Positions 2 to 6,910 of a stretch of DNA of 7,303 bases are shown here, in pieces. The stretch's first letter is position 1. Each line of letters starts with the position of its first letter. The stretch comes from a bacterium. Lineage in GTDB: Bacteria > Patescibacteria > JAEDAM01 > Absconditabacterales > Absconditicoccaceae. The notes beneath the pieces are model-generated. The model was given only the letters and a program-made list of their open reading frames with translations, was not told where the DNA came from and did not search any database. A program made the position numbers and the translations under genes. Location: positions 1 through 7,303 of the forward strand of contig JAFRZH010000014.1 in assembly GCA_017442645.1 (NCBI GenBank), read 5' to 3'.

Positions 2-853
2 GCTATTAAAGTAGCTCTTGAAGAATATAAGACAAAATTTAAATGAGCCAACATTGCACCAGCATTAGAGTTTGATTATCTCGGGGATATGGACCAAGCT
101 GGAGATAAAGTAAGTCAACAGCAAAGATTTGTGGAAGGAGTTTGTTATATTGAAAAAAAAGAAAATAAAGTTGATTATAGCAAAGTACATGAACGAATTC
201 ATACAGCAGCACTTCACTGAATAAGCGAAGCAGCTAGGGTAGAAGTTTGAAGTACAGAAGATAATGTTTTTAATGAAGAACGACAAATATTAACAGAAAA
301 CAGAGAAACAAATCCAGACTATGATAACAAAACTATTGAATTTAGATATAAGAACGCAAATGATACAAAAATTAGATATCATCGGGACACTTGAAAAGTT
401 GAAATGGAATTTAACAGCAAGGCATATGAAATACCCATCAATTTTTGACCATTAACCGAAGTAGTCACTACACCTCCTGATAAAAATTATCCTGATTGAA
501 CAAATCGAAGAAATCATAGCATTATTAGATCTTTATGAGGATTTACATGATGTTTAGCTTATATCAAAAAGAATGGAATTATGAAAGATTCAACTTATCC
601 AATCGAATACGATTCAACGAAAGATATTGATCTAAAAGACGGGAGAACTTTCTCTACCGATACTGAATTAATTGAAAATGAGATTATCACAAATCAAATT
701 TCATGATACATGTCAATAACACCAACAGATTGGAAAAAAATAATCGCAATGTGCAATAAGATGAAAGAAGATGCAGGACGTTTAACAAATTACAATTGAT
801 TAGATCCTCAACAGCAAGCTAATCAATATAGTGGAAGTATTACGACATACTAA
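2..853 (+). CDS. Hypothetical protein, 3' part (5' end outside window), code 25
   Basis: Reading from base 2 with TGA as glycine gives 283 residues without interruption to the TAA at 851-853. Under the standard code the frame would be cut by ten TGA codons. I do not recognise the family. The visible part is hydrophilic and rich in D, E, K, N and T, with no clear membrane segment, so it looks like a soluble or surface-exposed domain. Stretches such as YHRDTGKVEMEF and YEIPINFGPLTEVV suggest beta-rich structure. A short less polar stretch, SLGGFTGCLAYIKKNGI, lies around residues 176-192 of the visible part, and a charged helical piece (DWKKIIAMCNKMKEDAGR) lies near the C-terminus. The tail is Q/N/S-rich. 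Ten of its 18 glycines use TGA, the heaviest use among the longer genes here. The start, any signal peptide and total length cannot be judged. It converges on the membrane-protein gene, with only 78 bases between the two stop codons. The gene call is firm and the function is unknown. Confidence 0.88.
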
Positions 854-931: not shown

Positions 932-3900
932 TTAAATCAATTCTACTCAAAGAATCTGACTTGAAGAAGAAATACTATTTAAAATCATTTGCTGAATATT
1001 TTCACCCAAAGAATTACTTCCTTGTTGATACATATTATAAAGATTGATATACTGAATCATTGTAGAAATTTCTCATTTTGACAAACCATCAATATCAAGT
1101 TTTCCATTTCACTGATAATAATTAATAATTTTCTCACGAATAAGATTTGCATCTCACTCGACTCAAGACATCATTAACATTTCAGGAACCGCTTCAAAAG
1201 AAATCAGTCTATTAAAGAAAATTCTATAAATCTGAGTAAATAAGGTTTCAATTTCATTTGAGAAATAACGAATTCCCATAAATTTAGCTCTACGAAGTAC
1301 CAGATCTTCATCCGTTAAATTTCCAAGATACTTTTCCAAAGTTTCATCATCTAACGTTAAAGCATAATAAAATCCAATATGATTTGTACTAATAAGCTTT
1401 AAATATCCTTGTTGATAAAATCTCACTAAAATAGAAAGAATTCCATCTTTTTCAATTTGTCCATTTACAGCACTAAGTTTTGCAAAGAACCTATGGAAAA
1501 GACTTTCATTTCCCTCTCACATTCCTACCGATCCAATATTGGGATCAATAATAAGATACTTTAAATGTTGATTTTTTAGTCTTCGATAACTTTTACAAAG
1601 ATCTCCATCTGAAATTTTCTCTGCAAAATCTGTTAACATCCCATCCATTTGAAGATTCTTTTGATTGTGAAGGAAATATTGAATATACGTTCCTGCAACT
1701 TTCACTCCATCTTCATCTTTTCTCTCTTTCAAATAAGAAATAAGAGCATTATATTGAGGAAATTGAAGATCAAAAATATCTTTTTCTCCATAACGATATT
1801 GTTTCTTCTGAGCAACACTAATTTGTCTGGAAACAGGATCTAAAACATATTCTGAATCTTTTCCAACATTTTCCTTATACCAAACAAAAGGACCAGATGC
1901 TCCTTGAGAAGCGATTCTCATAAAGTTTAGAAACAATTGAAAACAAGCAGCAAGCCCACAAAGCAGAATCATCAAATGAAGAAGATTTTTCCACATCAAA
2001 GATTCTTTTTTCATTTGAAGACTCGAAAAGAAAGTAGTTATAGTAAGGATTGTCCAAGAAATAAGAACCGTTCCATACCAAAGAATTCCTCCTCAAATAA
2101 TCCATCGAATTCCCCATCAAATAAGGTTTGCAAGACTAATACTAAGTAATTTCTTCTCTTTATTGATAAGAGCATAGATACAAGCACTAATCATCAAGAA
2201 ATAAAGAATAATCCAAACAAATCCAATATCCGTGTAATAAGAACTGAGATTTTGTAAGGATCGATTCATTGAAATATTTAATGGGACAATGAATCTATAA
2301 GGAATAGCCAAATAATCATCAGCAGATTTTATACTATGAGACTGATAATATTGCCTCAAAGCGACAATATGATCTCTAAATTCTTGAGGATTATAAGAAG
2401 AATTTTCAGAAGGATATTTTTCATCAAATGCATCAATCGCAGTTTTAAGAAGCACTCCACCGGAAGTTTCAGCATTTTTTAACTCTTCATAAATTTTCTT
2501 CAAAGTAACAATCTCAAAATTATCGACAGCATTTGCATTTTCACAAAGTTGAACAGCAACTTCATTAAATCCATAACATCAATCCTTCAAAAAAGGAATT
2601 TTTATCAAAGGATACAAAACATTATGTTTACTTGAAAATTCTTTTCGTCCATATCCAATATATCTTCCTACATCTTCATTTAATCCGTGTCATTGATCTT
2701 TTTCAAGATTAGCAGTAAGTTCTTCTTCACTATAAATGTTTCCCTGTTCAAGACATCTTTTTGCATCTTGGGGAGCTTTTACAATAGGATTTTGTGCCAA
2801 TTTTTCTGATTCAGTATCTGCTAAAGCATAAGTAGAATCAAAATCCGCCTTAGCTAACATATACTGTTTAAAAGTCTGTACTGAAAGATTCTCCTTGGAT
2901 AACAATTGATAAAGAACCGCTGGAGTTTTAAAAAGAAGAAAAGGAATAAAAAAGCTGACCAATAAAACGATTCCCTGAAAAACCGCATCTCTAATTTTTC
3001 TCTGTTTTCTTATAGTATCAACAAGCCCCAAAAGAACCAAAAGGACTCAAATGATAATAAAAACCATAGCAAGATTCTCTTCAATAATATACGAAGAAGT
3101 TAAAATATTCAAATATCTCACGATTCAAGCAAGTGTAAATCAAAGTCCCAAAGCAGAGAGATTAGAAATTCTTAATCAAACAAAAAGAACTCCAAATAAA
3201 GCAAGATCAACGAATGCAGTAACTTTTGCAAGACAACCACATCAAAACAAAATTCCCGCTACAATTAAATATTTCCAATAACCTTTTTTTTCATCCTTTT
3301 CATTATCACCTATACAATCTCCCTTTTGGGTATACTCCAAAAAAAGGATTCATGAAAATAAAGCCAAACTAGAAATTGCCATAACTCACAAATCTGTCTT
3401 ATTATCTACCATAACCAAGAAAGCCCCCATTCAACTTGTTAACCAAAGAAGAAGAGTTCCCCATCAAGCAATCAAACCTCAAAATCCTTCAACTTTTCTA
3501 ATTTTTACGGGATATTCTTCCCCACACCTAGAACAAAACCTCTCTTTATTAGTTTTTTTACAAACAGGACAAACTCGTGATTTTATCTCAGATTTTTCTT
3601 CTTTTTCTTTCTGTTTTCCTCTTATAAATTCAAAAACTTCACTAATCATTCAAATTCAAAAAATGAATACAAGAATTGCACTTCGAAAATTTGTAGAAAC
3701 AGCAATAGTATTAGGATTAAGGCCAAAGATTTGATTCCATGGTAAACCTTTTCCTCCTGCTAGAGAAAAAAAGAACGCAATAAATCCATGTCGAAGTCAT
3801 GGAAAACCTCAACCTACGGTATTATTCCATAAAACTCAAGCATTTTCGGACAAAATTTTCGGGATATACATATATTCATGATTTGCGTCCCACGCTGTTG

Positions 3901-4654
3901 AATAAGGAATAAAAGAATTCTGAAATCAAAAAAGCAAATATACAAATACTATCCCAATAAGACAATACAAAGAGATTTTAAAAACCTGTGGAGTAGTAGA
4001 AAGAGCAACAATTTCCTTATTAAGAATCTTTTCATCATCCGACAAGGTGCTTCTCATCAGATAAATACAAAATCAAAAGCCAATAAACAAAACAACACTT
4101 ACCCAACCATAAAGAAGATTAGTTTGAAGCAAAACATTAATAAGCAACAAAAAAGCACACAATCAAATTCCCAAACTTAATAAAATTTCTTGCCACCTTC
4201 TTTGTTGAAAACGAATACATTTTCTTTCAATAAAAGTTCAAATACTATGCATTCATAAAAGAGCATAAGCTCCCAAAAAGAACAGCAAAACAGTATTAAA
4301 AAAACAAATTATCCATCAAACTCCTATAATTTCTGCTTTAATAGCACTATGAAGTACTCAGAAAATTCAAGATATTCAAGCAAAAATCGTCACCATAGTC
4401 TTTAAAGAAAACTTTTGAGCAGTAGCAAGATATCCAACAGGAATCGCTGACAAAATAAGAGCAATTACAAAAAGCCACAAATTACTGCTTTCTGCTAAAA
4501 TTCCTACATACTCTTTCAATTTTTCATCATAACTCAAATAATAACTATGTTCCTGAAGATATGCAAGGATACTCTCTCCTCCGATTAAGATTCCCAAAAG
4601 CAAAACAATTCAGAAACAAACAAGTTTTCAATGTTGTTTTCGAAATTCTTTCAT
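932..4654 (-). CDS. Large multi-pass membrane protein with GT-C-like core and embedded zinc ribbon, code 25
   Basis: With TGA as glycine one frame runs from ATG (4652-4654) to TAA (932-934), 1240 residues. By my reading it contains about 36 in-frame TGA codons; under the standard code it would look like half a dozen fragments. Residues 1-220 hold about six membrane helices. Another helix (about 227-244) is followed by WDANHEYMY (W255-D256...H259-E260), resembling the acidic first external loop of GT-C glycosyltransferases. A charged loop after the helix at about 322-338 carries CPVC...CSRC (C362, C365, C374, C377), a rubredoxin-like zinc ribbon. More helices span about 391-572, including GCGCLAKVTAF (about 471-481), similar to the lysine-containing segment common in GT-C enzymes. 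A soluble stretch (about 575-810), further helices (about 815-906) and a C-terminal soluble domain with IDPNIG (1036-1041) follow. Transfer of a lipid-linked sugar at the membrane is an inference; transport or another envelope role remains possible. There is no Shine-Dalgarno sequence before the start. Confidence 0.93.
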
Positions 4655-4798: not shown

Positions 4799-6910
4799 CT
4801 ACTCCCCCATCAATTGATTGATAATCTCAGGTTCAATCGTATCATTGATATATCTTTCAAGAGGTCTTGCTCCATATTGAGGATCATAAATTTTATCAAT
4901 CACCTCTTTAATCTTTTTATCCGTATATTTTGGAAGTTTCACAGCAGGATTTTTCTCCCAAATATTGAAAAACTGTTTAAGTTGAAGTGAGAAAATACTT
5001 TTCAATTCTTCTTTCGTCAGAGGTTTGAAAATCACTTTATAATCAATTCTATTGAGAAGTTCTGGAGAAAGATGTTTTTTCAATTGTTCAATAATTTTCT
5101 CTTTCGTGTGTTCAAATCCAGAAACATCGAATTCTTGTTCTTCATGAGTAGAAAATCAGATTTTTACTTGTTTTTTTGAAAACTCCTCTCCTCCAATATT
5201 ACTCGTCATAATGATAATCGTACTCTTGAAATCAATAATTCTTCCTTTAGAATCTTTGAGTTGCCCCTCATCAAGGATCTGTAAAAGCAAATTCAAAACA
5301 TCAGTACTAGATTTCTCAATTTCATCGAAAAGTACGACACTATAAGGTTTTCTTCTTACTGCCTCTGTCAAACTTCCTCCTTCTTCAAATCCAACATATC
5401 CAGCAGCAGATCCGATCAATTTACTTACAGAATATTTTTCCATAAATTCAGACATATCAAACCTAATCATCGCACTCTCATCACCAAAATAATCTTTGGC
5501 AATAAGCTTCGCTAAATACGTTTTCCCAACTCCTGAAGGCCCAAGCAAAAGAAAGCTTCCAATTGGTTTCTTCTTTTCAATCATAGAAAGTCTGCTTCTT
5601 GTAAGAGTTTTTACAATAGCATTCACTGCTTCTTCTTGTCCAATCAAACTTTCTTGAAGAGTAGCTTTCAATCTTTTTAATTTACTAATTTCATCTTCAT
5701 TCACGATATTTACAGGAATTCACGTTTTTTCTGCCAAAACATTTCCAATATGACTTGGAGTAATTTTAGTCCTTTTTTCGGGAGGAATCGCAGAAAAATT
5801 TCTAATATTCTGAAGTTTCTTTTTCAATTCATCTTGTTTCTCTTTCAATTCAGAAGCAGTAAAATAATCCTGATTATTAACCGCAGTAGCAATCTGTTCT
5901 TGAAGTTTATCAAGTTCTTTTTCGGTTGCTAAATATTCTTTATTGGTATCAAGTTTTTCTTGAATTGTAGATTCCCTTGCACAAGCTTCATCCAAAATAT
6001 CCAAAGCCTTGTCAGGAAGTTGTTTATTGAGAATATATCTTTTACTAAGATTGATCGCAGACCAAATAGCCTCATCAGAAATCAAAACTCCATGAAAGTC
6101 TTCATACGTTTTTCTAAGTCCTGAAATAATCTCAAAAGCAATATCATTCGTTGGTTCATTCACCACTACTTCCTGAAATCTTCTCTTCAAAGCCGCATCT
6201 TTTTCGATAATTTTCTGATATTCATCAAAAGTCGTTGCTCCAATCAGTTTAATTTTTCCTCTTGAAAGAATCGGTTTCAACATTTGAGCAGCATCATTGT
6301 GATCCTGTCCTCCTGCACCAATAATCGTATGAAGTTCATCGATAAAAAGGATAATATTATTGGCAGGATTCATCGCTTCATCAAGGATATTTTTCATCCT
6401 AGATTCAAATTCTCCTCTATATTTTGTCCCCGCTACCAACGTTCCCATATCAAGCAAAAAAATTCTTTTCCCTCTAAGTTTGAGAGGAACATTTCCCGTA
6501 TTAATTCTTTGAGCTAATCCTTCAACAATAGCAGTTTTTCAAACTCCAGGCTCTCCAATCAAAAGCGGATTATTCTTCGTCTTCCTGAGAAGAGTATAAA
6601 TCACTTGATCAATCTCCTTCTCTCTTCCAATAATCGGATCAATATATCCTTCCTTTGCATCTTTCGTCAAATCCGTTCCGTAATATTCGATTTCCAACGT
6701 TTTTTGTTCCGTTTTCTTTTTATCATTCGAAGAAGTCTTTCCTTTATCATCAGGAGTGTCTTGAGAGATTTGACTTTCTACACTATTGGAAATATGATCG
6801 CGAGAAGTCTCCGCTAACGTTCTCAATTCCTTATCAATTTGCTTTTCCTTCGCATTATCAAGGGTATTTTGAGCATTTTCTTCATTATCAAGAGTAATAT
6901 TTTTTGCCAT
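4799..6910 (-). CDS. clpC: ClpC-type AAA+ unfoldase lacking the N-domain, code 25
   Basis: This is an Hsp100 ATPase that unfolds proteins and feeds them to the ClpP protease in the cytoplasm. ATG (6908-6910) to TAG gives 703 residues; a TAA four codons upstream blocks any longer start. Residues 1 to about 85 are a charged, probably disordered tail instead of the usual ClpC N-domain of about 145 residues. AAA domain 1 has Walker A GEPGVGKT (119-126), pore loop GTKYRG (161-166), Walker B FIDE (189-192), and GATT with arginine fingers R243/R244. The short middle domain carries a UVR motif (about 343-366), as in ClpC and unlike the long ClpB coil. AAA domain 2 has GPSGVGKT (457-464), pore loop GYVG (504-507), Walker B LFDE (527-530), TSNIG (569-573), the ClpP-docking IGF (584-586) and sensor 2 YGARPLER (679-686). 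Three TGA codons encode G124, G397 (TGIPV) and G585. No Shine-Dalgarno sequence precedes the start. A terminator on each side suggests a single-gene unit. Confidence 0.96.

Follow-up and report, generated by a model that had tools for sequence, protein, structure and literature searches.

Absconditabacteria and Gracilibacteria depart from the standard genetic code in their reading of the codon UGA, which encodes glycine, an assignment that dates to papers of 2013 as named by Shulgina and Eddy (2021, PMC8629427). In the Absconditabacteria the departure extends further, and a Codetta prediction in the same work assigned CGA and CGG to tryptophan, a reading that is taken as given for the Absconditabacterales in another report (PMC13092985). 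Proteomic evidence for the meaning of UGA comes from a BD1-5/SN-2 bacterium, in which unique peptides numbered 97 with glycine, three with tryptophan, and none consistent with a stop at this codon (PMC4032931). The same study describes single peptides with tryptophan, alanine, aspartate, or lysine at UGA, possibly reflecting low-level mistranslation. NCBI translation table 25, designated for SR1 and Gracilibacteria, incorporates UGA as glycine and retains CGA and CGG as arginine.

Here, we describe an analysis of codon usage and conservation in a 7,303-base stretch of bacterial DNA (the window; 31% G+C). We present evidence that the window is almost certainly a contig from the chromosome of a member of the Absconditabacteria (SR1) in which UGA specifies glycine, CGA and CGG specify tryptophan, and UAA and UAG are the stops, and that it is a further case of the published Absconditabacteria code, not a new code. 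The meanings of UGA and CGA are derived from alignments within the window itself, and the UCA tRNA, the missing release factor RF2, and the meaning of CGG from relatives only. With the code described for Absconditabacteria (PMC8629427) the window shares UGA at conserved glycines, CGA at conserved tryptophans, arginine encoded mainly by AGA, and a low G+C content (0.31), and its relatives match that description in possessing a UCA tRNA with glycine identity bases as well as tRNAs with UCG and CCG anticodons; compared on UGA and CGA, the window shows no difference from the code as laid out in the available text of that paper. The BD1-5/SN-2 bacterium, a member of another lineage, reads UGA as the window does (PMC4032931). 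Table 25 likewise agrees with the window on UGA and differs on CGA, which by alignment is tryptophan.

With TGA taken as a sense codon, the window resolves into three genes, none of which is open over its full length under table 11. These encode an HSP100/Clp-type ATPase of 703 amino acids with two AAA domains (4799..6910, minus strand), a protein of 1,240 amino acids (932..4654, minus strand), and the 3' part of an orphan gene (2..853, plus strand) whose public copy is 463 amino acids long. The three frames hold 49 in-frame TGA codons, distributed as 3, 36, and 10, respectively, and no internal TAA or TAG. The share of TGA among glycine codons is strongly gene-dependent: 3 of 41 in the Clp gene, 36 of 104 in the 1,240-residue protein, and 10 of 18 in the orphan gene. 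Reading CGA and CGG as tryptophan alters 12 codons of the window (11 CGA and one CGG), eight of them CGA codons in the 1,240-residue protein and the remainder, three CGA and one CGG, in the orphan gene; the Clp gene contains neither codon. ARAGORN detected no tRNA in the window, and no Rfam family reached its gathering score there.

The Clp frame (6910-4799, minus strand) is open for 703 codons when TGA is glycine and contains exactly three TGA codons, and table 11 splits it into four ORFs of 123, 245, 182, and 94 amino acids. A prior reading of the sequence alone (the sequence-only reading) had placed these codons at three conserved glycine positions. We aligned the window protein with those of 12 recoded relatives, drawn from a set of 80 loci, together with 10 Clp proteins of standard code that were chosen by hand from the 68 other loci, and all three placements were upheld. 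Codon 124 (6539..6541, minus strand, inside 6530-6555) lies in the motif GEPGV-[TGA]-KTA and corresponds, within the first AAA domain, to the Walker A glycine that precedes the lysine of that motif; this residue is glycine in 10 of 10 standard-code homologues. Codon 397 (5720..5722, minus strand; T-[TGA]-IPV) faces glycine in 9 of 10, and codon 585 (5156..5158, minus strand; I-[TGA]-F) in 10 of 10. In 12 of 12 recoded relatives each of the three sites is occupied by GGN or TGA. At codon 124 TGA occurs in one relative (L007) and GGN in the other 11, and at codon 397 the relatives are evenly divided, six with each. Since columns with glycine in at least nine of the 10 standard-code rows make up 30 of the 703, the chance of hitting them with all of three randomly placed codons is approximately 8e-5. 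Among the 12 relatives, too, TGA occurs in the Clp frames, with no other internal stop.

Domain matches above cut-off (AAA, AAA_lid_9, AAA_2, and ClpB_D2-small) place the predicted 703-residue protein in the broad HSP100/Clp ATPase class, with two AAA modules, a lid, and a ClpB D2-small domain. Its scores against the NCBIfam models for ClpA, ClpB, and TssH all fell under the cut-off (ClpB, 738 versus 1232 bits; ClpA, 650 versus 993 bits), and its best sequence match in the PDB is ClpC. In the alignment with ClpC, residue 585 falls on the glycine of an A-G-F motif, and the surrounding I-G-F is presumably a ClpP-docking loop like that of ClpA, ClpC, and ClpX. The protein thus resembles ClpC-type HSP100 ATPases (e.g. 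PDB 6em8) in its two AAA domains, its GEPGVGKTA Walker A motif, and the G-F pair at this likely loop, and differs from them in its first 63 residues, which lie outside the match. Distant phage DNA also matches the window (42 records, 60-80% identity), and all 20 of the listed matches fall within the Clp gene.

The 1,240-residue protein provides a larger sample of TGA codons. It has homologues in 12 of 12 relatives, with best-segment identities of 40-51%, and its listed matches carry TGA in frame and no other internal stop. In an alignment with the 12 relatives' sequences, three of which are cut at the end of their locus (1,071-1,101 amino acids), the cells facing the window's 36 TGA codons that are neither TGA nor gaps encode glycine in 154 of 277 cases and tryptophan in none. 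Conversely, at the 37 columns of invariant glycine the window uses TGA 17 times, GGN 19 times, and another codon once. The valyl- and isoleucyl-tRNA synthetases (ValRS and IleRS) of the 12 relatives, compared with those of six standard-code genomes at columns conserved to 80%, gave the same picture: TGA faces glycine 133 times, the next residue is alanine with six, and tryptophan is not among the top six. The synthetase set includes fragments, namely the ValRS of G010 (164 amino acids) and the IleRS of G003 (442 amino acids), and the cells counted in both the synthetases and the 1,240-residue protein belong to sequences that are related to one another and do not represent independent events. 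As judged from these alignments, UGA means glycine in the window, and the stop and tryptophan readings are contradicted, as the sequence-only reading had maintained. The 1,240-residue protein itself has no match to Pfam or NCBIfam at an E-value of 0.001; it appears hydrophobic by eye and is probably located in the membrane. Searches of viral contigs with this protein and with ORF1 of the orphan gene revealed no relative. The ValRS proteins of G004 and G009 (L184 and L195) have several of the tryptophans of the standard-code rows that the ValRS of the other relatives lack, and two types of ValRS seem to exist among the 12.

If UGA is a sense codon, a tRNA-Gly with a UCA anticodon and the absence of prfB, the gene for RF2, would be anticipated, as the sequence-only reading had pointed out; both were sought in the 12 relatives and both expectations held. 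A DNA query for the UCA-anticodon tRNA matched 10 of the 12 relatives and none of six standard-code genomes, with no match in G008 and G010. ARAGORN assigned the anticodon tca to nine of the 10 loci and predicted no gene at the tenth (G011), whose match spans 54 of the 74 bases. All nine complete copies carry G1:C72, C2:G71, G3:C70, and U73, as does the tRNA-Gly(UCC) of G001. The same acceptor-base rule was used for glycine by Shulgina and Eddy (PMC8629427). ARAGORN labels the UCA tRNAs 'SeC', a label that follows from the anticodon, and they are 74 bases in length. Selenocysteine tRNAs are longer than this, and we rejected that identity on the ground of length.

The prfB model found matches in 11 of the 12 relatives, none over the cut-off, which it exceeded in 10 of 14 genomes used as controls. 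A PxT motif, the mark of RF1, identifies the 11 strong matches as that factor, and G011 yielded no release-factor match. Five further weak matches to the model (E-values of 4e-6 to 2e-4), distributed over four or five relatives, carry a GGQ motif in frames of 107-161 amino acids, and these were dismissed as RF2 candidates, being too short. The gaps in the survey, the UCA tRNA in G008 and G010 and the release factor in G011, are perhaps due to incomplete assemblies. Extended to the organism of the window, these observations suggest that RF2 would have been lost and that UGA would be read by a UCA-anticodon tRNA that bears glycine identity bases at its acceptor end and is presumably charged by glycyl-tRNA synthetase.

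The second reassignment concerns CGA and CGG. The eight CGA codons of the window's 1,240-residue protein face 35 tryptophan cells, no arginine, and 25 other cells among the relatives. Four of them lie in columns that contain only TGG, CGA, or CGG across the 12 relatives: codon 288 (3791..3793; nine TGG and three CGA or CGG), codon 670 (2645..2647; seven TGG and five CGA or CGG), codon 798 (2261..2263; seven TGG and five CGA), and codon 850 (2105..2107; nine TGG and three CGA), all on the minus strand. Such columns number 17 of 1,240, and the binomial probability of four window CGA codons falling there is approximately 2e-6; at these 17 columns the window has TGG ten times, CGA four times, and one each of TTG, GTT, and AGA. 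The other four CGA codons count against the assignment, those at 324 and 360 lying in columns without any tryptophan and those at 5 and 1024 in mixed columns. As controls, the window's AGA and AGG codons in this alignment face 141 arginine, eight tryptophan, and 127 other cells, and its CGT codons 11 arginine, no tryptophan, and 45 other cells.

In the ValRS and IleRS of the relatives, the top six residues facing CGA are 96 W, 8 Y, 8 P, 4 C, 2 F, and 1 R, and those facing CGG are 26 W, 4 F, 2 R, 1 Q, 1 Y, and 1 P, and AGA faces arginine 144 times. For the CGG codons of G012 tryptophan is absent from the top four residues. At column 651 of the Clp alignment six relatives have CGA and the window and the other six TGG, and the standard-code rows there are not tryptophan (4 R, 2 K, 2 N, 1 G, and 1 Q). 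The synthetase alignments took the place of a crude blast test in which every open frame was compared with frames of the outgroups; there CGA faced 3 R, 2 W, 1 A, and 1 L, and CGG faced 2 R. That test was dropped as evidence, as antisense frames were mixed in and CGA and CGG columns were few. We also discarded a tally of the residues that public copies of the proteins show at CGA columns, because these copies seem to have been called with several tables. On the strength of the alignments, we conclude that CGA is tryptophan in the window and that CGG, by alignment in the relatives, is predicted to be so as well. The reading as tryptophan of the window's single CGG (codon 128 of the orphan-gene ORF1) and of the three CGA codons of that gene would follow from the code as a whole, because the orphan gene has no independent homologue.

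Tryptophan would be inserted at CGA and CGG by tRNA(UCG) and tRNA(CCG) charged by tryptophanyl-tRNA synthetase, leaving arginine to be encoded by AGA/AGG and CGU/CGC. The relatives do carry UCG and CCG tRNAs. Six of these from G001, G005, and G012 were inspected by eye with U8 as the anchor, a reading that carries little weight here: four have A/G1:U72 together with G73, the UCG tRNA of G001 has G1:C72 with G73, and a second tRNA(CCG) of G005 (L152, 485-561) resembles a normal arginine tRNA with the CCA encoded in its gene and is perhaps located on a contaminant contig. In G012, for which only part of the tRNA matches was inspected, no tRNA with a UCG anticodon turned up.

The kinship of the window is in accord with its code. 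In a Clp tree of 13 recoded sequences and three outgroups, a sample with no undisputed Gracilibacteria in it, the window groups with the 12 recoded relatives with support of 100/100, apart from the outgroups; the program warned of meeting long branches for one outgroup. Within the group it lies beside G002, G003, and G011 on a branch of 0.35, a weakly supported position (83/99), and by Clp identity its nearest relative is G001 (75% over 658 columns). Taxon labels in the record titles of the 12 relatives comprise three of Absconditabacteria or SR1, one of Gracilibacteria, and one of Peribacteria, and the other titles give none of these. The Peribacteria record, L069 (JAISMG010000025.1, labelled Candidatus Peribacteria), is grouped with the recoded relatives by its Clp protein, its UCA tRNA, and its usage of CGA as tryptophan, and the label is probably wrong. 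Among the 120 listed homologues of the 1,240-residue protein (279 found), nine of the nine with a named organism are SR1 or Absconditabacteria. Taken together, the Clp tree and these homologues place the window among the SR1/Absconditabacteria, in agreement with the lineage proposed from the sequence alone.

Public protein entries illustrate how this code is misread. The only public protein found for the orphan gene, P0006, is 463 amino acids long, is 95% identical to ORF1, and has 1,954 bases as its longest contig. It differs from the recoded ORF1 at 14 of 283 residues, all of them at recoded codons, with W at all ten TGA and R at all four CGA or CGG codons, and the two are very probably the same gene. 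A search of the 12 relatives' genomes with ORF1, run without a positive control, gave no match, and a Pfam search gave nothing over a cut-off. Residues 64-68 of the orphan gene's frame in the window form an HExxH-like motif, HEWIH when CGA is tryptophan; HExxH motifs occur in zinc metallopeptidases. For the 1,240-residue protein, we considered 13 columns that are glycine in all 12 DNA-checked relatives, and 107 of the 120 listed public homologues (279 found) have tryptophan in at least one of them; over these columns the listed entries contain 763 W and 786 G. This pattern, judged from the proteins alone, suggests widespread mistranslation among public entries.

These entries also bear on the alternative codes that might be proposed for the window. 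The tryptophan reading of UGA (table 4) is the one assumed in P0006, and the W at all ten of its TGA codons is what speaks in its favor. Yet none of the 277 non-gap cells facing the 36 TGA codons of the 1,240-residue protein is tryptophan, the Walker A column is glycine in all 10 standard-code Clp rows, and the relatives' UCA tRNA carries glycine identity bases, so that we give this reading virtually no credence. An ordinary code, with the Clp gene either decayed to a pseudogene or missequenced, would explain why table 11 yields four ORFs from that gene. It is, however, hardly conceivable in view of 49 TGA codons alongside no internal TAA or TAG in three frames, the position of all three Clp TGA codons on conserved glycines and of TGA at 17 of 37 invariant glycine columns of the 1,240-residue protein, and the recurrence of TGA with no other internal stop in the relatives' Clp frames and in the listed matches of the 1,240-residue protein.

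Another alternative is table 25 as it stands, with UGA alone changed and CGA and CGG still arginine. A paper of 2023 applied it to Gracilibacteria and Absconditabacteria (PMC10746230), ARAGORN labels the relatives' UCG and CCG tRNAs as arginine, though by anticodon, and the crude blast test gave three arginines to two tryptophans at CGA. Against this stand the absence of arginine from the cells facing the window's CGA codons, 35 of which are tryptophan, and the synthetases of the relatives, with one arginine to 96 tryptophans at CGA and two to 26 at CGG, and we regard unmodified table 25 as very unlikely. The sequence-only reading, which held that the whole contig must be called with this table, was therefore right for UGA as glycine and only half right in its choice of table, which keeps CGA and CGG as arginine; under table 25, 12 codons of the window would still be mistranslated.

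With UGA as glycine and CGA and CGG as tryptophan, the practical point for annotation outweighs the biology, which is already published. When table 25 is applied to this clade, true tryptophans are given as arginine, and when UGA is read according to table 4, true glycines are given as tryptophan; P0006 contains both errors, with ten glycines as tryptophan and four tryptophans as arginine.

A further question is how accurately UGA is decoded. If its reading were ambiguous, UGA should be avoided at invariant glycines. Comparison of TGA with GGN at such positions gave an odds ratio of 1.58 (z 3.2; 13 sequences) for the 1,240-residue protein, 0.97 (z -0.1) for Clp, and 1.39 (z 2.7) for both genes, z values that are too optimistic given that the 13 sequences are related. 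Invariant glycines, a Walker A glycine among them, thus show no depletion of UGA, and in the 1,240-residue protein the codon is in slight excess at these positions. The peptides with other residues at UGA in the BD1-5/SN-2 bacterium, as described in the available text (PMC4032931), would leave room for low-level misreading. We tentatively propose, as a possibility somewhat less likely than not, that the reassignment of UGA is complete in this lineage and that the codon is decoded as accurately as GGN. If true, this would argue against a lasting ambiguous stage, in which UGA was read as glycine, tryptophan, or stop, in this clade.
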